Shown: in pieces, positions 18,257-34,718 of the stretch
How the letters are laid out: each line of letters begins with the position of its first letter
Position numbering within the stretch: position 1 is the stretch's first letter
Origin: Bacillota bacterium
GTDB lineage: Bacteria; Bacillota; Sulfobacillia; Sulfobacillales; JAIMBI01
NCBI GenBank assembly: GCA_021797815.1
Contig: JAJZYZ010000017.1
Location: 1 to 43,704 of the forward strand
Length of the DNA: 43,704 bases
Reading direction: 5' to 3'
Notes under the pieces: model-generated
Told to the model about the DNA's origin: nothing
Databases searched by the model: none
The model's input: the letters and a program-made list of their open reading frames with translations, nothing else
Program-made: the position numbers and the translations under genes

Positions 18257-19861
18257 ATGGCCGATCCGCTCTACCTCCCGTACCCATCACAGCGCGTGCC
18301 GGTTTACGCCCGCCGGGGCATGGTCGCCACCGCCCAGCCGCTGGCGGCGGAGGCCGGTCTTCGCATCCTGCGCGAAGGCGGTAACGCGGTTGACGCGGCC
18401 ATCGCCACGGCCGCTGCCCTGACAGTTCTGGAACCCACGTCCAACGGCATCGGGAGTGATGCGTTCGCCATCGTCTGGACACAAGGCCGCCTCCACGGGC
18501 TCAACGCCAGCGGCCCGGCCCCGATGGGCCTTACCCCGGCCGTCATGGCGGAGCGCGGCCACACCACCATGCCCGCGCGCGGCCTTATTCCCATCACGGT
18601 TCCCGGGACGCCGGCGGCCTGGGCGGTGCTGGTGGAGCGTTTCGGACGCCTGTCTCTGACGGAGGTCCTCACGCCCGCCATCGAGTATGCGACGGAGGGC
18701 TATCCCGTTTCCCCGCATGTGGGACGCTCCTGGCAGGCCGCCCACCGGGCGTATCGGGACACGTTGACGGGATCGGAATTCCGGGGCTGGTTTGAAACTT
18801 TTGCGCCCGGCGGCACGGCACCGGGTCCCGGACAAATGTGGCGGTCGCCCGGGCACGCCAGGACCCTGCGCCAGATCGCGGAAAGCGGCGCCCGCAGTTT
18901 TTATGAGGGAGAGATCGCGGAGCGAATTGATCGATTCTTCCGGGACGAGGGCGGCTACCTTCGGTTCGACGACCTCAAACGCTTCGAGCCCGAGTGGATC
19001 GATCCCCTTCGGGTCGGCTACCGCGGTTATGAGGTGGCGGAACTGCCGCCGAACGGTCAGGGACTCATCGCGCTCATGGCCCTGCAGATTGCCGACGGCT
19101 TTCACTTTGACGCGCGCGACGGCATAGAGACGTATCACCGCCAGATCGAGGCGCTGAAACTCGCGTTTTCTGATGGTCTTCGCTACATCGCCGACCCGAA
19201 GATGGCCGCGGTGCCGGTGGCGGAGCTCCTGAGCGAGGCCTACGCCGCCGTTCGCCGGCGGCAGATTGGCCCCCGCGCCCTCGATCCGGCGCCTGGCCGT
19301 CCACCGGGCGGCGGCACCGTGTATCTGTGCACGGGCGACGGGGAGGGCAATCTGGTCTCGTACATTCAGAGCAATTACGCCGGTTTTGGCTCCGGCGTGG
19401 TGGTGCCCGACACCGGCATTGCGCTCCAGAACCGCGGCGCTCTGTTCAGTCTCGACCCGGCTCACCCGAACTGCCTGGCGCCGGGCAAACGCCCCTACCA
19501 CACCATCATTCCCGGCTTCTTGATGAAAGGAGGCCAGCCGGTCGGGCCCTTTGGCATCATGGGAGGCTTCATGCAGCCGCAAGCGCACCTGCAGGTCATC
19601 TCGAACCTGCTGGACTTCGGTTTGAACCCCCAGGCGGCTCTTGACGCCCCGCGCTGGCAGTGGGTGGAAGGGCGGCGCGTGGACCTGGAGTACGGGTCCG
19701 GACAGCACATCGCCGAGGCGCTGCGTCTTTTAGGCCATGACGTCCGCTGGGCGATGGGGTCGGGAGGCTTCGGACGGGGCGAGATTATCTTCCGCGACGC
19801 CGAGGGGGTGCTCGTGGGAGCGACCGAGCCGCGGGCCGACGGCCATGTGGCCGCCTTCTAA
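18257..19861 (+). CDS. ggt: Gamma-glutamyltransferase, YwrD-type without signal peptide
   Basis: A 534-residue N-terminal-nucleophile enzyme that transfers or hydrolyses gamma-glutamyl groups from glutathione and related compounds. Signatures are GMVATAQPLAAEAGLRIL (21-38), GGNAVDAA (41-48) and the autoprocessing Thr354 in GGGTVYL, followed by GNLVSYIQS. A PYHTIIPGFL segment and an acidic C-terminal region follow. The usual HTTH at the cleavage site is GGGT here. Classical enzymes are secreted, but this one starts directly with the mature domain, as in Bacillus YwrD, implying a cytosolic role. The ATG follows TAGGAGGA. It converges on a phosphotransferase gene 251 bases away. Confidence 0.9.
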   Translation: MADPLYLPYPSQRVPVYARRGMVATAQPLAAEAGLRILREGGNAVDAAIATAAALTVLEPTSNGIGSDAFAIVWTQGRLHGLNASGPAPMGLTPAVMAERGHTTMPARGLIPITVPGTPAAWAVLVERFGRLSLTEVLTPAIEYATEGYPVSPHVGRSWQAAHRAYRDTLTGSEFRGWFETFAPGGTAPGPGQMWRSPGHARTLRQIAESGARSFYEGEIAERIDRFFRDEGGYLRFDDLKRFEPEWIDPLRVGYRGYEVAELPPNGQGLIALMALQIADGFHFDARDGIETYHRQIEALKLAFSDGLRYIADPKMAAVPVAELLSEAYAAVRRRQIGPRALDPAPGRPPGGGTVYLCTGDGEGNLVSYIQSNYAGFGSGVVVPDTGIALQNRGALFSLDPAHPNCLAPGKRPYHTIIPGFLMKGGQPVGPFGIMGGFMQPQAHLQVISNLLDFGLNPQAALDAPRWQWVEGRRVDLEYGSGQHIAEALRLLGHDVRWAMGSGGFGRGEIIFRDAEGVLVGATEPRADGHVAAF

Positions 19862-21030: not shown

Positions 21031-21278
21031 GGACGTCGCAAGACAACGCGCCGGTGCCCGATGCGCGGAAAAAGCAAGCCCGGACTGTAATGCATGAAAG
21101 CCCCCTGCCTGTGCATGGTGGACCGATCACATTCGGCGCTGGGGTGCCGTACCCTGCAAGGCCCACTCGGTCCCAACGTGAGGAGGGTAATCTGGGGCCG
21201 TTGCCGCCTGATTTGCAGGATTCGAGCGCCGGTGCCCGGAAGGTAGTCCGTCCAACCGATAAAGCGGAGGGACAAGTA

Positions 21279-24200
21279 ATGAGCCAGGTACTGAGCTCGC
21301 TCAGGTGGCGCAATGTCGGCCCCCATCGGGGCGGGCGCGTGGTAGCCGTGGCCGGGCACCCGACAGAACTCACCCATTTTCTCATGGGCTCCACGGGTGG
21401 CGGCGTCTGGCGGACCCTTAACGCCGGTGTCACGTGGGAGAATATTTCAGACGGGTTTTTCCAGACAGCCTCGGTCGGGGCCCTGGCGTTTGCGCCCGGC
21501 GACCCGGCCGTCATCTACGCCGGCATGGGTGAGAGCTGTATCCGCGGCAACGTTTCCTATGGCGACGGCGTGTACAAGTCGACCGACGGGGGCCGCACAT
21601 GGAGCCAGACCGGGCTTGCCGATACCCAGCACATCGCGCGCATCCGGGTACATCCGCACGATTCCGACCGGGTGATGGTGGCGGCGCTCGGGCACGCGTT
21701 CGGACCCAACCCGGATCGCGGGGTCTACCGGACGCGTGACGGGGGTCGGACGTGGGATCTGGTCCTCTCCCGAAGCGACAACACCGGCGCCATAGACCTG
21801 GCGATGGACCCGCGAAATCCGCGAATCTGGTATGCCGCACTCTGGCAGGCGCGCCGCGGACCGTGGTCGATGTCGAGCGGGGGCCCCGAGTCGGGTCTCT
21901 GGCGGTCGGTCGACGAGGGTGACACGTGGACGGACATCACGCACAACCCGGGCCTGCCGGAAGGGGTCGTGGGCCGCATCGGCATCACGGTGTCGCCGGC
22001 GCGGAGCGAGCGTCTGTACGCCGTGATCGAGGCCCGGGACGGAGCGGTGTTCCGTTCCGACGACTGGGGTGACCACTGGGTCCGCCTGTCCGAGGCGCAG
22101 GGTCTGCGCACCCGCCCCTGGTACTACTCGCATATCTTTGCCGATCCGGTGGATCAAGACACGGTATACGTCTTGAACTCCACCTTCTTCAAGTCCATCG
22201 ACGGGGGGCGCACGTTCGTCCCGGTAGCGACGCCGCACGGGGACCATCATGACCTGTGGATCGATCCGAAGAACCCGGACCGCATGATTCACGGTGCCGA
22301 CGGGGGAGCGTCGGTGTCGCTCGACGGCGGCGAGAGCTGGTCGACCATCTACAACCAACCCACCGGTGAGTTTTATCATGTGGCCACCGATACCGCGTTT
22401 CCGTACCGCGTCTACGGCGCCCAGCAGGACAACACGACCCTGTCGCTGCCGAGCCGCACCCACCGCGTCGCGATCGGGCCGCGCGACTACTACGATGTCG
22501 GCGGCGCCGAGAGCGGCTACATCGCCGTCGACCCGCGCGACAGCAACATCGTGTATGCGGGAAGCTCCGGCGGCGGAGAAGGCGGGCGCATTACCCGCTA
22601 TGACCATCGTTCGGGCCAGCAGAAGGACGTGTCGCCGTGGCCGGAACGGACGGCCGGCATGGCCGCGGAGGAATATCGCTACCGTTTCCAGTGGACAAGT
22701 CCGATCGTGCTGTCGCCGCATGATCCGAGCGTCCTGTACGTCACCGGGAATCATGTCTTCCGAAGCCGCGACGAGGGGCAGAGCTATGAGATCATAAGCC
22801 CCGATCTCACCCGACACGTTCCCGAAACCTTAAAACCTTCGGGCGGCCCCATCACCCTCGACCATACCGGCGTGGAGGTATATGGCACCATCTTTGCCTT
22901 TGCCGAGTCGCCCGTGGCGGAAGGAGTGCTGTGGGCCGGATCCGACGACGGGCTCGTTCACGTGTCCGAAGACGGCGGCCGGAGCTGGACGAATGTTACG
23001 CCGCCGTCCGATCTGCTGGGAGAGTGGGGCCTGGTGAGCCTCATCGAGCCGTCGCGGCACGACGCCGACACGGCGTACATGGCGGCCAATCGATACAAGC
23101 AGGACGACTTTGCGCCCTACCTCCTGAAGACCAACGACCGGGGCCGGCACTGGACCCCCATCGTGGAGGGACTCCCGACCGACGAGTACATGCGGGCCGT
23201 CCGCGAGGACCCCGAGGTGGCGGGGCTGCTTTATGCGGCCGGTGAGCGCGGCGTGTACGTGTCCTTTGACGGCGGCGCCCTGTTTCACTCTCTGCGGCTC
23301 AATCTGCCGGTGGTGCCGGTGCATGACCTCGTAGTGGCCGGCGACGACCTGGTGGCGGCCAGTCACGGCCGCGGTTTCTGGATCCTGGACGATCTTACCC
23401 CGCTGAGGGCTCTGGCGGCCGACGGGGACATGAACCGACTCAGGCTCCTTCAGCCCGGTGACCGCGTGCGCATGATGGGCGGTGCCGGCCTGTTCGTCCC
23501 GAAGGGCACCACCTTCGAGCGTCATCGCGCGGCCATGGAGTTCCCGACCGGGACCAGTTACTACGTGAAAAAGCTGGGCGAACATGGGGAGCCGCCCGAA
23601 CTGCTGGACGCAGGGGCCAATCCCCCCACCGGAGTCGTCCTGCACTACGTGCTGCCGGAAGACCAGACCGAGCCCGTCACGATCCGCATCGTGGCCGATG
23701 AGGGAGCCGGGGTCCTCGTCCGCGAATATCGGAGCGACACGGCTGTGGAGGAAGAGCCGAAGCCGGCGACCGCCAAAGGCGCCCACCGCTTCATCTGGGA
23801 CTTGCGGGCGGCGCCCGCCGTCCGGGTGGAGGGTTCGGAGCCCAGTCCCTGGGAGGTGACGGCGCCGGTGGTGCCGCCGGGCCGGTACCAGGTGCTTCTT
23901 CAGGCCGGAGAGGCGACGGCCTCGGTGAACGTCACGATTCTGCCGGACCCGCGGGCGAGTGCCGACGGTGAGCACGCGGCCGAGAAAGCTCGCGAGGCGT
24001 TTTCACTCGCCATTCGCATCCGCGATGCGGTCAGCCATGCGCAGACCGCGGTCAACCACATCCGCGCGCTCCGGGCCGACATGGAGATGTGGGTCAAGCG
24101 GTCGACGGGCCATCCGGCCGCAAGTCGCCTGCAGGAGGCGTTTCAAGCAGCCAAGGAGCCGCTTGACCAGGTGGAAGGACGACTCATTCAGACGCGCGGG

Positions 24201-24437
24201 ACGGGTCCGGAGGACGACCTGCAGTTCCCGCCCCGCCTGAACGCGCAGCTCCAATACCTTATCGGGGTCATCGAGTCGGGTGACGGACCGCCGACGGCTC
24301 AGACCCGGGCCGCCTTCGAACACCTCTTCACAGAGCTGGAAGCAGCGTTGTCCGCGCTCGCGGATGTGGAGGCCGGACCGGTGGCGGCGTTTTCGCGTCT
24401 TCTGAAAGAAGCCGAGCTCCCACTGCTGCGAGAGTAA
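21279..24437 (+). CDS. BNR/sortilin-type beta-propeller protein, paralogue 1
   Basis: A 1,052-residue protein. Residues about 10-740 hold roughly ten Asp-box (BNR) repeats, such as STDGGRTW, TRDGGRTW, SVDEGDTW, SLDGGESW and SEDGGRSW, predicting two beta-propellers of the sortilin/VPS10 type. The next 230 residues look like beta-sandwich. The final 100 or so are helical with heptad-like stretches. Such proteins are often annotated as glycosyl hydrolases, but no catalytic residues can be assigned. The ATG at 21279 has CGGAGGG eight bases upstream. The chosen N-terminus, MSQVLSSLRW, is not a signal peptide, so a cytosolic protein is predicted. It shares its whole length with the inverted paralogue at 31364-34525. 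Confidence 0.82.
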   Translation: MSQVLSSLRWRNVGPHRGGRVVAVAGHPTELTHFLMGSTGGGVWRTLNAGVTWENISDGFFQTASVGALAFAPGDPAVIYAGMGESCIRGNVSYGDGVYKSTDGGRTWSQTGLADTQHIARIRVHPHDSDRVMVAALGHAFGPNPDRGVYRTRDGGRTWDLVLSRSDNTGAIDLAMDPRNPRIWYAALWQARRGPWSMSSGGPESGLWRSVDEGDTWTDITHNPGLPEGVVGRIGITVSPARSERLYAVIEARDGAVFRSDDWGDHWVRLSEAQGLRTRPWYYSHIFADPVDQDTVYVLNSTFFKSIDGGRTFVPVATPHGDHHDLWIDPKNPDRMIHGADGGASVSLDGGESWSTIYNQPTGEFYHVATDTAFPYRVYGAQQDNTTLSLPSRTHRVAIGPRDYYDVGGAESGYIAVDPRDSNIVYAGSSGGGEGGRITRYDHRSGQQKDVSPWPERTAGMAAEEYRYRFQWTSPIVLSPHDPSVLYVTGNHVFRSRDEGQSYEIISPDLTRHVPETLKPSGGPITLDHTGVEVYGTIFAFAESPVAEGVLWAGSDDGLVHVSEDGGRSWTNVTPPSDLLGEWGLVSLIEPSRHDADTAYMAANRYKQDDFAPYLLKTNDRGRHWTPIVEGLPTDEYMRAVREDPEVAGLLYAAGERGVYVSFDGGALFHSLRLNLPVVPVHDLVVAGDDLVAASHGRGFWILDDLTPLRALAADGDMNRLRLLQPGDRVRMMGGAGLFVPKGTTFERHRAAMEFPTGTSYYVKKLGEHGEPPELLDAGANPPTGVVLHYVLPEDQTEPVTIRIVADEGAGVLVREYRSDTAVEEEPKPATAKGAHRFIWDLRAAPAVRVEGSEPSPWEVTAPVVPPGRYQVLLQAGEATASVNVTILPDPRASADGEHAAEKAREAFSLAIRIRDAVSHAQTAVNHIRALRADMEMWVKRSTGHPAASRLQEAFQAAKEPLDQVEGRLIQTRGTGPEDDLQFPPRLNAQLQYLIGVIESGDGPPTAQTRAAFEHLFTELEAALSALADVEAGPVAAFSRLLKEAELPLLRE

Positions 24438-24523: not shown

Positions 24524-24833
24524 TTGCGTGCACGATCTCGCTCATATGGGCGGGCGTGCCGGCCAACACGTCCGATCCCGCGTACAGGGAGCGCTTGACC
24601 CGTGCGCGCGTGGAGCACGGTCTTCGTCCGGCGATAACCAACGAGCGGTCCCACGTCGCCAAGCAAGCAGACCGTTACGGCCCAGCAGGTACCGATGGGC
24701 CGCCGAGGACTGGCCGAACGACCCTGTGAGCGGGGAGCACCGCCCCTTACTGTTGAAAGGTGCCCGGGACAAGGGCGACTGCGGAGTCCTAAGACAGGGA
24801 GATCGGCGGATCCGAAGAAAGAGGTGGATGTTA

Positions 24834-24917
24834 ATGGCGGTTGGCGACATACTGGCAGGGGTAGCGATTGTGGTAACGTTTGTGGTGTTCCTGGCCTGGC
24901 CGGTGCATCACCACTGA
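24834..24917 (+). CDS. 27-residue single-span membrane protein, candidate small subunit of the bc complex
   Basis: The ATG at 24834 has GAGGTGG seven bases upstream, and the frame encodes 27 residues to TGA at 24915-24917. Residues 6-22 form one hydrophobic helix (ILAGVAIVVTFVVFLAW) after a short MAVGD start, and the C-terminus ends in three His. The cytochrome b6-like gene begins 32 bases later. Size and position recall the tiny single-span subunits (PetG, PetL, PetM) of cytochrome b6f, but no homology can be claimed at this length. Another ATG at 24828 is in frame but too close to the ribosome binding site. Confidence 0.6.
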   Translation: MAVGDILAGVAIVVTFVVFLAWPVHHH

Positions 24918-24949
24918 GGTTTCGCTCGTAAGGGAGGCAGCGTCGCCCT

Positions 24950-25588
24950 GTGAATTGGACCGATTATCTTCGCGACAAGATGGGGCAGCTGTTTTCCGTG
25001 GATGTTTGGCTCCCGCGTGACCTTCCCGAGTATGCATTCGGCGTACTCTACACCCTTGGTTCGCTTACCGCTTCCAGCTTTGTAATCCTGGTCGTGTCGG
25101 GCGTGGTGATGGCTGCCAACGGGCCCCAGTGGTGGGCTGTCTCCGCCATCGGCTTCTTCGTCCGCGGCGTGCACTTCTGGTCGGTGCAGGCCTTTTTCTT
25201 TTTCATGATCCTGCACCTGCTGCGGGTGTTCTTTTCGGGCGCCTGGCGAGGTGGGCGTGAGCGGACGTGGCTTCTTGGGACCCTGTCGCTTCTGATTGCG
25301 GTTCCGACGGCCTTTACCGGCTATCTCATGCGGGGCGATTTTTATTCTCAGTGGAACGCTGTTCAGGCCAAAGACGGGCTGAACGCCCTCGGACTGGCGT
25401 GGTTTAACGTGCTGGACGCCGGCCAGATGTACGGCCTGCACGTTGTGGTGCTGCCCCTGATTTTGGGTGTGCTGATCATGCTGCACATCATCCTGATCCG
25501 GGTAAAGGGCGTGGTGCCGCCCTATCCGAGCCGCGGCGAGACACCGACCGTCGGGGACGGGGAGGGCGTGCGCGATGCCGAATCCTAA
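24950..25588 (+). CDS. Cytochrome b6-like N-terminal cytochrome b subunit
   Basis: A 212-residue four-helix cytochrome b that binds two b haems and carries electrons across the membrane from quinol. The haem-ligand pairs are His75/His89 (13 residues between) and His164/His179 (14 between). The 14-residue spacing in the fourth helix is the b6/Gram-positive type rather than the bc1 type. There is no cysteine anywhere, so the covalent extra haem c of b6 and Bacillus QcrB cannot attach here. The usual GYLLPWD turn reads GYLMRGD (124-130). The GTG start has AGGGAGG 12 bases upstream. The gene overlaps the next by 14 bases. Confidence 0.88.
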   Translation: MNWTDYLRDKMGQLFSVDVWLPRDLPEYAFGVLYTLGSLTASSFVILVVSGVVMAANGPQWWAVSAIGFFVRGVHFWSVQAFFFFMILHLLRVFFSGAWRGGRERTWLLGTLSLLIAVPTAFTGYLMRGDFYSQWNAVQAKDGLNALGLAWFNVLDAGQMYGLHVVVLPLILGVLIMLHIILIRVKGVVPPYPSRGETPTVGDGEGVRDAES

Positions 25589-26531
25589 GATTGACCTCAC
25601 GCATCGGTACCGGTACGTGCCGTCCGACTTCGTCAAGCATCTCGGGATGACCACCCTGGTCATCGCGGTACTGGCGGTCGTGCTGTCGGCGGTGTTCCGC
25701 GAGCCGGTCCGTCCCGCGCTTAAAATCTCGACGATTGCCACCAAGACCCCGGTGCTGTTCGAGAAGGTGGCGATGGGGGATTTGACCGGCACGGGTCAAA
25801 TTGCTACCTATGGACCGCCCTACAATTCTTCCCAGGGCAACGTGCAGAGCCCCATGCAGAATATCGTGGGTGTGATTCACCCCGTCAATCCCAAGGTTGA
25901 CTTCGTCTTGACGCCGCTTAAAATGGCCGCGTCCCTCAATCCGGCCGTGGGGACCGCGCTTCACACCTGGGACGCCGCTCCGGCCTCACGGCAGACGGCG
26001 TGGGCAGACCGTTATCAGGCGGCCCTGGCCCACGCCCGTGTCGTCGGCGGGCAGGTGGTGGTGCCCGCCGGCGCCTACGGTCCCGTGCCCACAATGATGC
26101 GGGGCCTCTTGGAGCTCGGGCGCAGCGGCCTGATGACGGGTGCCCTCAACCGGAGCCCGGCCGACTACCAGTTTGACAACATGTACGGCCTGCTGTTTAT
26201 CCAGGGCGCGCCACTTCATAATGCGGCCAGCCGGCTGGAACTGCTGGGCAACCAGTGGGGCATCATCCACGAAGAAAACGCTCCGTATCCGGGACCGTGG
26301 TGGATGACGATTGTCACGGCCATCTACCAGATCCCCTTCGTGGCCCATGCGTCCTCCGGCGATGCCATGGCGCTCACGATCGGAATGCTCCTGTTTCTCG
26401 TCTTGATGTTCGCCCCCTGGATTCCCGGCATCAACCGGCTTCCTCGCCATCTCGGCGTATATCGCCTCATCTGGAAAAATTACTATCACGACCATGACGA
26501 TCCGAAGCCGGGTGGGGAGGCGTCTCCATGA
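25575..26531 (+). CDS. Subunit-IV-like cytochrome b C-terminal protein with a large extracytoplasmic insert
   Basis: A 318-residue protein. Helix one (about 22-42) ends in VFREP, like the start of subunit IV of b6f. The segment YPGPWWMTIV at 238-247 aligns in position with the quinol-oxidation-site PEWY motif, but the catalytic Glu is missing. Helix two (about 265-285) is followed by a PGINRLPRHLGVYRLIW segment (284-300), resembling the end of cytochrome b C-terminal domains in some acidophilic Bacillota and archaea. Between the helices lies a polar region of about 200 residues predicted outside the membrane, much larger than in normal subunit IV. It probably pairs with the b6-like protein. 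Assignment rests on these motifs and the operon. Confidence 0.7.
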   Translation: MPNPKIDLTHRYRYVPSDFVKHLGMTTLVIAVLAVVLSAVFREPVRPALKISTIATKTPVLFEKVAMGDLTGTGQIATYGPPYNSSQGNVQSPMQNIVGVIHPVNPKVDFVLTPLKMAASLNPAVGTALHTWDAAPASRQTAWADRYQAALAHARVVGGQVVVPAGAYGPVPTMMRGLLELGRSGLMTGALNRSPADYQFDNMYGLLFIQGAPLHNAASRLELLGNQWGIIHEENAPYPGPWWMTIVTAIYQIPFVAHASSGDAMALTIGMLLFLVLMFAPWIPGINRLPRHLGVYRLIWKNYYHDHDDPKPGGEASP

Positions 26532-26719
26532 AAGGCAGGCGCCGCATGCCGCTCCGGGTCGTCCTTCGTTTTGCCGCCGGCGCCATGCTTGGCATCTACG
26601 GGCTCGGCCGCATGGGCGACAGTCTCTTTCCGTTCCGTCCAGGATCGTTCGGACTCGGGATCGGTCTCCTGGCGGTCGGCGCCTTCACCCTCTTGGGACT
26701 CATGACCGCCCGAGGCTAG
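26528..26719 (+). CDS. 63-residue two-span membrane protein of the bc locus
   Basis: It starts in an ATGA overlap with the preceding subunit, with GGGGAGG six bases upstream, and encodes a basic N-terminus (KGRRRMP) and two hydrophobic spans (about 10-25 and 41-59). No family is recognised. Translational coupling to the cytochrome b genes makes it a likely accessory or assembly subunit of the same complex. No Rieske protein or cytochrome c gene follows; the next gene is on the other strand. Confidence 0.65.
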   Translation: MKGRRRMPLRVVLRFAAGAMLGIYGLGRMGDSLFPFRPGSFGLGIGLLAVGAFTLLGLMTARG

Positions 26720-31363: not shown

Positions 31364-34300
31364 TTACGGCGCAGACCTTGAAGACAGGAGCGGCAGGTTG
31401 ACCGCCGACAGGGCCCGTTCAAATGCGGCCACCTCACCCGTGAAAGCACTTTCAACCTCCGTCAGGAGGCCATCCATTCGGGCTGTCAGATCCTGGTGCA
31501 CGGCATGCATCTGAGCCGTCGGCGCGGCCTGACCCATGGCGACCGCTCCCGACAGGGACGCGAGGCGCTGGGCGAGCTTGCCCGGAACATTCAGCAGGTC
31601 CTTGGCGCTTCGCGCCTCTAGCTGGTGCAGTTCGCCTTCAAGCCCATGCAGCCGCTCGAGAACGGTCCGGGCAGAGTCTTGCAGCGACTCCCGCCCCGCG
31701 TCGCCGGCCAGCCCCTGATAGAAGCGAACGGCGCTTTCCGTTCGTCGGATCCGAAAGACCGTCTCGTGGACCCGGGTGATCTCGTCGCGAATCGCGAGCA
31801 GAAGGTCAAACTGGGCCTGGAGATCGGCGTCTGACGCCTCCATGCGGGGATCGCGCCGGATCTGGATGGTGCCCGTCGCACGGGCCTCGCCTGCCTGCAT
31901 TTCCACCGTGTAGGTGCCGGGAGGGGCCACGGGCCCCCGGATGCCGCCTCCGCGATAGACCGCCTTCGGCATGGCCAGCGCCTCCGGATAGCGCCCGTCC
32001 CAAAGAACCCGGTGAGCGCCCGCGGTCACGACCAGCGGCGGCTCGCGGCGAGCACCCTCGACCGGCTCCGGCGGGACACTCGAGAAGGTCTTGACGATCC
32101 GGCCGTCCGCGTCCGTGATAGTAAGGGTAGCCGGATGTTCGGTGTCGTCATGGGCCGTCTGAAGCCAGTAGTGGATCGGCACCCCGGCCGGCGGGTTGGA
32201 CGCGGCGTCGAGGTAGCGGATACGCTCCTCGTCGTCCCGTCCCCGATATTTTTCCCATGCCACCATGGTCATATCGGCGGTCATGACGCCGCTCGCACCC
32301 TCCCGGCGCCCGCCCTCAAAGCCGCCGCGCGGACGGAGGACCGGAGCGGCGGGGTAGATTCGAAGCGCCTCCTCCCCATCAATGGCGGGCAGCTGCCGGA
32401 CCGGCGTCAAGTCGTCCAGGAGGTAGAATCCGCGCCCGTGGGTCGCCAGCACCAGGCTGTCGTCATGAAACGCGATGTCCCACACCGGGACGACCGGGAG
32501 GTTCCATTTGGCGGCCGCCCAGCTGTCGCCGGCATCGAAGGAGACGTAGACGCCGCGCATCGTGCCGCATGCGAGGAGTCCCGGGTGCTTCGGGTCCTCG
32601 CGGACCACCCGCGTCGCCTCGTCGGCCGGGATGCCGCCCGCGATGCTTTCCCAGCTGGTTCCGTAGTCCCGGGTCCGGAAGAGAAGCGGATCCAGCCGGT
32701 CGCTCTTGTAACAGGTGGCGGCCACATACGCTGTCCCGGGATCGGCATGCGAGGGCTCGATGATGGCGATAAGCGCCCACTCGGGCAGCGAAGGCGGCGT
32801 GACGTTGGTCCAGGTGGCGCCCCCGTCCCGGGTGATGTGGATGAGGCCGTCGTCGGATCCGGCCCATAAGACGCCCCGTTCGAGCGGTGACTCGGCGAGC
32901 GCGAAGATGGTGCAGTAGAATTCGGCGCTCGTGTTGTCCTTCGTGACCGGTCCCCCGGAGGATTCCTGGCGAGACTTGTCATCCCGGGTGAGGTCCGGAC
33001 TTATCACATCCCAGTTCCTACCCTCGTCGCGCGATCGGAACACGACGTTGGCGGCCTGATAGAGGGTGTGGGGGTCGTGGGGCGAGATGAACATGGGGGA
33101 GGTCCACTGAAACCGGTAGCGCGCGTCCCGGGCTCCGGCTCCGGAGACATCCGCCGGCCACGGCGTGATGTTCCGCACCTCCCCGCTCCGGTGGTTGTAG
33201 CGGGTGAGGAGGTTGTAGCTGCCCGCGTAGACGATGTCCGGGTTGTCCGGCCGGACCGCGATGTAGCCGCTCTCGCCCCCGCCGACGGCGTAGGCGCTGG
33301 CCACGGTAATGGCGGCGCCATCGGTACGGCTCGGCACCGAGAGGGTGGAATTGTCCTGCTGGGCTCCGTACACGCGAAACGGCGTACTGGTGTCGGTGGT
33401 GACATGATAGAACTGCGCTGTCGGCTGATTCATGAGACTTGACCAGGTGTGGCCGCCGTCGTAGGTCACGGCCGCGCCCCCGTCGTGTCCGTTGATCATC
33501 CGGCGCGGGTCGGCGGCGTCTATCCACAGATCGTGGTGGTCGACGTGAGCGGCCGCCATCTTCTCGTAGGTCCGGCCCCCGTCCAGAGACCGGAAGCTTT
33601 CGAAGCTCAGGTAGTAGATGCGGTCGGCGTCCACGGGATCGGCAAACAGGTGGCTGAAGTACCAGGGCCGCTGGCGCAGCTCCGGGTTGTCCGTCATCTG
33701 CTCCCAGTGCCCGCCGAAATCGTCGCTCCGGTACACGCCGCCGGCCGAGCCCGTCATTTCCAGGGACAGGTATACGCGGCCGGCTGACGGCGCCGCCGCC
33801 ACCGAGATGCGGCCCTTCACACCTTCCGGTATGCCCGGCCGGACCGTGAGCTCATCCCAGTGGTCACCGCCGTCGGTGCTGCCGAAGACGCGGCTTCCCG
33901 GTCCTCCCGCCTCCAGCGAGTAGGGGGTGCGATGCGCCTCGTACGTGGCGGCGTACAGGATGCGGGGATTCAGGGGATCCATGCTGAGGTCAATGACGCC
34001 GCTCCGGTCGTCCACGTAAAGCACCCGCTCGAAGTGGCGGCCGCCGTCGCGCGAGCGATAAAGGCCTCGCTCCTCATTGGGCCCGAACGCGTGGCCGAAG
34101 GCGCCGACGTAAACCAGGTCGGGATCTTGGGGATGGACACGGATGCGTGATATCTGGCGCGTCTCGGCCAGGCCGAGGTGACTCCAGCTGCGGCCTGCGT
34201 CGGTGCTCTTGTAGACCCCGTCCCCGTGCAGCACGTTCTCCCGAATGCATGCCTCGCCCATGCCGGCGTAAATCACCGCCGGGTCGCTCGCCGCCACCGC

Positions 34301-34525
34301 CAGCGCTCCCACCGAGGCTGTCTGAAAGTAGCCATCCGAGACCGGCCGCCAGTGAAGACCGCCGTCTTCGGTCTTCCAGACCCCGCCCGCGCAGGCGCCG
34401 AAGTAAAACGTAGCGGGATCATGCGGATCTCCCGCTACGGAAGTTACCCGTCCCGCCCGAAACGGACCCAGAAGCCGCCACTCCAGTGATCCGAGCGCAT
34501 CTTGCACGCTCTCGCTTCTTGCCAT
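31364..34525 (-). CDS. BNR/sortilin-type beta-propeller protein, paralogue 2
   Basis: A 1,053-residue protein with the same layout as the one at 21279-24437. It carries about eleven Asp-boxes (TEDGGLHW, STDAGRSW, STDGGDHW, SLDGGRTY, TYDGGHTW, SRDEGRNW, TRDGGATW and others), a beta-rich middle, and a helical C-terminus. Shared strings such as DGYFQTASVGALA / DGFFQTASVGALA, FGHAFGPN, DHHDLWID and RVYGAQQDN show the two are full-length paralogues. The ATG at 34525 has GGAGGA just upstream, and the N-terminus MARSESVQDALG is no signal peptide. Ligand or enzymatic activity is unknown. A terminator follows. Confidence 0.82.
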   Translation of the reverse strand: MARSESVQDALGSLEWRLLGPFRAGRVTSVAGDPHDPATFYFGACAGGVWKTEDGGLHWRPVSDGYFQTASVGALAVAASDPAVIYAGMGEACIRENVLHGDGVYKSTDAGRSWSHLGLAETRQISRIRVHPQDPDLVYVGAFGHAFGPNEERGLYRSRDGGRHFERVLYVDDRSGVIDLSMDPLNPRILYAATYEAHRTPYSLEAGGPGSRVFGSTDGGDHWDELTVRPGIPEGVKGRISVAAAPSAGRVYLSLEMTGSAGGVYRSDDFGGHWEQMTDNPELRQRPWYFSHLFADPVDADRIYYLSFESFRSLDGGRTYEKMAAAHVDHHDLWIDAADPRRMINGHDGGAAVTYDGGHTWSSLMNQPTAQFYHVTTDTSTPFRVYGAQQDNSTLSVPSRTDGAAITVASAYAVGGGESGYIAVRPDNPDIVYAGSYNLLTRYNHRSGEVRNITPWPADVSGAGARDARYRFQWTSPMFISPHDPHTLYQAANVVFRSRDEGRNWDVISPDLTRDDKSRQESSGGPVTKDNTSAEFYCTIFALAESPLERGVLWAGSDDGLIHITRDGGATWTNVTPPSLPEWALIAIIEPSHADPGTAYVAATCYKSDRLDPLLFRTRDYGTSWESIAGGIPADEATRVVREDPKHPGLLACGTMRGVYVSFDAGDSWAAAKWNLPVVPVWDIAFHDDSLVLATHGRGFYLLDDLTPVRQLPAIDGEEALRIYPAAPVLRPRGGFEGGRREGASGVMTADMTMVAWEKYRGRDDEERIRYLDAASNPPAGVPIHYWLQTAHDDTEHPATLTITDADGRIVKTFSSVPPEPVEGARREPPLVVTAGAHRVLWDGRYPEALAMPKAVYRGGGIRGPVAPPGTYTVEMQAGEARATGTIQIRRDPRMEASDADLQAQFDLLLAIRDEITRVHETVFRIRRTESAVRFYQGLAGDAGRESLQDSARTVLERLHGLEGELHQLEARSAKDLLNVPGKLAQRLASLSGAVAMGQAAPTAQMHAVHQDLTARMDGLLTEVESAFTGEVAAFERALSAVNLPLLSSRSAP

Positions 34526-34718
34526 GACGATCCTCCTCCAGCCGCAACCGAAAAAGCGCCGATACATGATCTGCTTCAGAATTCCAGGATTTCACCCGGG
34601 ACTTCCATCGTCCCCAACTTCGTGCCCCATCTTCGGCTTCCACTTTGGACTTCCACACTGCGCGGGGTGATCCTTTGCCGGGGTGTCCGGCCATTGCGTG
34701 GAGGCGTAGCATAGGCTC

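Follow-up and report, generated by a model that had tools for sequence, protein, structure and literature searches.

The locus at positions 24834-26719 of the window (the whole stretch of DNA analyzed, 43,704 nucleotides in length; contig C133 of a source assembly of 2.9 Mb that is 97.75% complete) probably encodes a complete stand-alone membrane complex of four subunits, which would derive from a cytochrome b6/subunit IV core and have lost the Rieske protein and the cytochrome c. On comparative sequence grounds, the four genes travel together, the ligands of the two haems are kept, and the P-side quinol-oxidation motifs are swapped for other strongly conserved motifs. The sequence-only reading of this DNA had described four small and large frames in a row with short gaps or overlaps, and all of its coordinates were reproduced. 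The genes lie on the forward strand. A sequence resembling a Shine-Dalgarno element, AGAGGTGG (24820-24827), is spaced by 6 nt from the ATG at 24834, where the ORF of a 27-aa one-span subunit, MAVGDILAGVAIVVTFVVFLAWPVHHH, begins (24834-24917). After a gap of 32 nt follows the gene of a 212-aa b6-like diheme cytochrome b (24950-25588), which has a GTG start and overlaps by 14 nt with the gene of a 318-aa subunit-IV-like protein (25575-26531). The latter overlaps by 4 nt (ATGA) with the gene of a 63-aa two-span subunit (26528-26719). It was also confirmed that no Rieske or cytochrome c gene adjoins the four-gene locus and that no CxxCH protein is encoded there; the neighboring genes encode a Sortilin/BNR protein, a Usp protein, and a ThiO-like oxidase. 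Promoter and terminator scans of the locus gave no useful signal, and a search for plasmid carriage gave no match.

The b6-like protein was found to match the Pfam families Cytochrom_B_N_2 (1.8e-19) and Cytochrome_B (6e-13) as well as solved b6 structures (2.9e-14). Its four haem-ligand histidines, H75/H89 and H164/H179, are invariant in the alignment of the divergent b6 sequences, canonical b6 included. The second pair has the b6-type spacing of 15 residues, which is a known feature of b6. A b6 fold with two haems b in series implies quinone-linked electron transfer across the membrane. The position of the haem-cn Cys is occupied by Thr, Met, or Ser in the divergent b6 sequences, whereas that Cys is present in the canonical b6 of this genome. 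The PW[DG] motif of the cd loop is absent from the divergent b6 (RGD-FYSQWNAVQAKD versus LLPWDEKAYF in canonical b6). In place of the PWD loop on the P-side, the divergent members share a conserved QWN-VQ-KD, which in the window is QWNAVQAKD (25349-25375, located by alignment with canonical b6).

The subunit-IV-like protein has two predicted membrane helices flanking a large conserved extracytoplasmic domain of ~195 residues (residues 44-240, encoded by 25704-26294), which contains an invariant GPPYN (YGPPYN in the window). This domain, in which no Cys is conserved, appears from its position to fill the Rieske-head docking loop of bc complexes. At the position of the PEWY/PDWY Qo motif, the members carry PG[PA]WW (PGPWW or PGAWW; PGPWW at 26289-26303 in the window), while canonical paralogues in the same order carry PDWY. 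The two tryptophan residues, W242 and W243, are present in 58/60 and 60/60 members, respectively. The window protein has no Cys, no Cys is conserved across the 60 members, and H232 is conserved in 57 of them but is isolated; thus, a role as a redox protein was rejected. Gene order, topology, and the WW motif tentatively suggest that the 318-aa protein is a subunit IV homologue. An hhalign comparison of the divergent and canonical subunit IV profiles gave a marginal result (probability 12%, 23 columns at TM E, the first helix). The subunit-IV-like, one-span, and two-span proteins matched no Pfam or NCBIfam family, and no solved structural relatives of the subunit-IV-like protein were found. The AlphaFold models are of moderate confidence (67 and 75, the latter being the pLDDT of the inserted domain, whose model is mostly helical). 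Fold searches with the full-length and inserted-domain models gave no Foldseek match at E<1 and no VIA Z >2.8, from which novelty of the fold does not follow. Separately, the class-level relatives L055 and L056 (G047, G044) have more distant b6/IV pairs, and the inserted domain of the L056 subunit IV is shorter and may represent an intermediate form.

Is this arrangement found in other genomes? Relatives of the subunit IV are present in 36 of the 61 related genomes and in 6 of the 398 genomes sampled across the phylum, and a pattern scan yielded 146 confirmed places, 80 of which were retained. The carriers include Sulfobacillus species, Alicyclobacillus tolerans, A. montanus, A. mengziensis, Ferroacidibacillus, Sulfoacidibacillus, and an Antarctic Chloroflexota MAG. 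The order of all four genes recurs in Sulfobacillales, in Alicyclobacillaceae and, more distantly, in the Chloroflexota MAG. Beyond close relatives, no flanking genes are shared, and no conserved neighbor indicates a partner, a cupredoxin, a multihaem cytochrome, or another reductase. A second, paralogous unit, complete with one-span and two-span genes, lies on contig C142 of the window genome. On a MAG contig, a second, divergent copy of the b6 and subunit IV genes (L147, 5134-6712, minus strand) lies directly downstream of the first copy on the opposite strand.

The locus had been interpreted as a divergent quinol-oxidising complex. A divergent complex of the bc family is what was found, but quinol oxidation in the bc sense is unsupported because both Qo motifs and the Rieske protein are absent, the latter genome-wide in several genomes. 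A normal bifurcated Q-cycle is unlikely in a complex of this predicted composition because there is no Rieske protein and no PEWY, and the docking loop is occupied. Electron flow through the two haems would rather connect a cytoplasmic-side quinone site with an extracytoplasmic partner, and the transfer would proceed without Q-cycle bifurcation. The partner would bind the inserted domain; alternatively, a rebuilt P-side quinone site would lie beneath that domain. I infer that the complex most likely works in iron or sulphur metabolism, since the carriers known by name are acidophiles that oxidise iron or sulphur and reduce Fe(III) (PMC8790237 for Fe(III) reduction). More tentatively, the Rieske-independent complex might take the place of the bc complex in acidophilic Firmicutes as their main quinone-linked unit of transmembrane electron transfer, paired with an extracytoplasmic carrier linked to iron or sulphur; its role would then extend to the uphill flow from Fe(II).

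A blue copper protein (sulfocyanin or rusticyanin) might have replaced the Rieske protein as the P-side one-electron carrier, and the rebuilt Qo site might then perform quinol oxidation or the reverse flow from Fe(II) to quinone. SoxE-type sulfocyanins are indeed found in 30 of the 61 genomes, with many carriers of the complex among them, and published work (PMC6803676 among others) proposes sulfocyanin or rusticyanin in iron oxidation and reports no bc1 for the uphill path. However, the near-complete genomes G007 and G009 have the complex without a SoxE match, as do G013, G025, and others, and the cupredoxin genes are not linked to the locus, so that this explanation is doubtful. Sulfocyanin as an obligate partner was rejected, since the complex is present in genomes without a SoxE match. 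The complex might also act in dissimilatory Fe(III) reduction at low pH as the step that draws on quinol, with electrons passing via the haems to an extracytoplasmic ferric reductase. Anaerobic Fe(III) reduction is documented for S. thermotolerans, S. benefaciens, S. harzensis, S. acidophilus, and A. tolerans, all of which are named carriers (PMC8790237), but these species are oxidisers of iron and sulphur as well, which makes the correlation unspecific, and the locus has no linked gene for a multihaem cytochrome or another reductase. I consider this explanation unlikely.

It was revealed that the window genome also has ordinary bc genes, which coexist with the divergent unit. Contig C80 (L038) encodes an ordinary b6 and a subunit IV that carries a fused c-type haem domain (PDWY, CATCH), with no adjacent Rieske gene, and a Tat-type bc Rieske protein was located on contig C81 (L003). 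With a bc-type Rieske protein and a b6/IV-c pair in the same genome, the locus might belong to a normal Q-cycle bc complex that recruits its Rieske protein and cytochrome c in trans from genes at other sites. This is improbable. In the relatives G007, G008, and G011, the ordinary Rieske, b6, and IVc genes form one operon, and thus the Rieske protein goes with the canonical pair; a bc-type Rieske protein is missing from several of the genomes that carry the divergent complex; and the complex itself has neither PEWY nor PW-D but a domain of ~195 residues in the docking loop. In seven unit-carrying Sulfobacillales genomes (G017, which is S. thermotolerans, G009, G012, G015, G022, G024, and G003), the Rieske-domain matches are of the ferredoxin/oxygenase type, with one weak G012 match that has no Rieske motif. 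Sulfoacidibacillus (G454) and A. montanus (G458) have Rieske-domain matches solely of non-bc types. In Alicyclobacillus SP_1 (G457) and Ferroacidibacillus (G459), all Rieske motifs examined are non-bc, while one match in each lies outside the examined set and one G457 match has no motif. The only cytochrome b/b6 matches of G009, G454, G457, G458, G459, G461, and G462 are of the low-scoring, divergent kind. In summary, S. thermotolerans Kr1, S. benefaciens AMDSBA1, Sulfoacidibacillus, Ferroacidibacillus, A. montanus, Alicyclobacillus SP_1, and G009 have no bc-type Rieske protein among the examined matches, and every cytochrome b match in these seven is of the low-scoring, divergent kind. These carrier genomes suggest that the divergent unit is independent of a bc-type Rieske protein. 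The sequence-only reading had allowed that ordinary bc genes elsewhere might account for the locus; such genes are present in the window genome, but they do not explain the locus away because relatives retain solely the divergent complex. In several cultured species, it is the only bc-family complex found.

The two small subunits proved to be genuine. An ORF with the one-span family pattern ([D/N]..F..P..H/R/K, with F16 invariant) is found upstream of b6 in 50 of the 63 related loci versus 0.11% of 6,300 shuffles, and the two-span gene, in which G22/G25/G44/G51 are invariant, occupies the same position in relatives. The pN/pS ratio of the one-span gene is 0.30 for 27 clade-B sequences and 0.36 for 13 Alicyclobacillaceae-type sequences, and that of the two-span gene is 0.54 (clade-B) and 0.51 (Alicyclobacillaceae-type); by this measure, both small genes are under purifying selection. 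One could take the short frames for chance ORFs next to an orphan cytochrome b, as the one-span frame is missing at some clade-A loci, but this is hardly credible: the shuffle comparison and the pN/pS ratios well below 1 led to its rejection, and the cross-family alignment also speaks against it. It had been suggested that the small subunits arose independently, but this does not hold in the sense of a local invention, as each of them is one conserved lineage in the family, alignable across groups and with invariant residues. The one-span gene is absent nearby in several clade-A copies and in one S. thermotolerans copy; thus, it is not indispensable everywhere. The subunit IV tree consists of one Alicyclobacillaceae-type group and two Sulfobacillales paralogue groups, and since the one-span gene is present in all three, with patchy absences, it is probably ancestral in the family. 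The one-span subunit has a size similar to those of PetG/L/M/N of b6f, and its very short sequence gave no Pfam match even at E 10. By analogy with the small subunits of b6f, it may brace the b subunit, while the two-span protein may supply the missing last cytochrome b helices (G and H).

The divergent complex resembles cytochrome b6f and the Bacillus-type QcrABC in its split b6 and subunit-IV-like genes and in its four haem-b histidines with the 15-residue second spacing, and it shares with b6f the presence of a small one-span subunit. Unlike b6f and QcrABC, it has no Rieske protein and no cytochrome c or f, it has PG[PA]WW for PEWY/PDWY and QWN-VQ-KD for PW-D, and its subunit IV is missing the third helix and has the extracytoplasmic insert of ~195 residues. 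It further differs from b6f in having Thr/Met/Ser for the haem-cn Cys. Among the NCBIfam models, the window b subunit matches ExtP of Geobacter (ExtO/ExtP/ExtQ, selenite/tellurite cluster) best, although far below the cut-off (77.6 versus 290 bits). Kinship of the window subunit IV with ExtQ was rejected, as the ExtQ model gives no match. In Geobacter, the ext cluster includes genes for a Rieske protein (ExtO) and for multihaem cytochromes (PMC5877670), whereas neither is encoded at the window locus.

According to the available text of Justice 2014, Sulfobacillus petB homologues lie in operons without an Fe-S protein and a cytochrome c (PMC4378227). Likewise, the available text of Panyushkina 2019 reports a cytochrome b without bc1 in S. 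thermotolerans Kr1 and counts two copies, while three copies of the divergent b-type unit were counted in this study (PMC6803676). These orphan "petB-like" cytochromes b are the same genes as those of the divergent complex. In the same portions of the two papers, the function of the petB-like b is left open, and no inserted domain, small subunits, or wider distribution is described (PMC4378227, PMC6803676). The literature covered treats the link of iron/sulphur oxidation to the quinone pool in Sulfobacillus-type organisms, and their uphill electron flow without bc1, as an unsolved question. Thus, the orphan petB-like b was already known, while no prior description of the four-subunit complex or its small subunits was found in the literature searched, the coverage of which is incomplete. 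With its four subunits now defined, the complex may be a candidate for the quinone-linked step in acidophiles that live on iron or sulphur and have no ordinary bc complex. A cytochrome b core that can persist without a Rieske protein while the quinol-oxidation site is rebuilt would bear on the evolution of bc complexes. The exact residues and the small proteins are now available as test targets.

As for the surroundings of the locus, a gamma-glutamyltransferase gene (18257-19861, plus strand) has no relation to the four-gene complex. Long proteins are encoded on both sides, at 21054-24437 on the plus strand (the product with the Sortilin-Vps10/BNR repeat domains) and at 31364-34567 on the minus strand. 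Both of them match one protein of another genome (L045, 15143-18301), whose gene is separated by ~5 kb from a clade-B copy of the complex.
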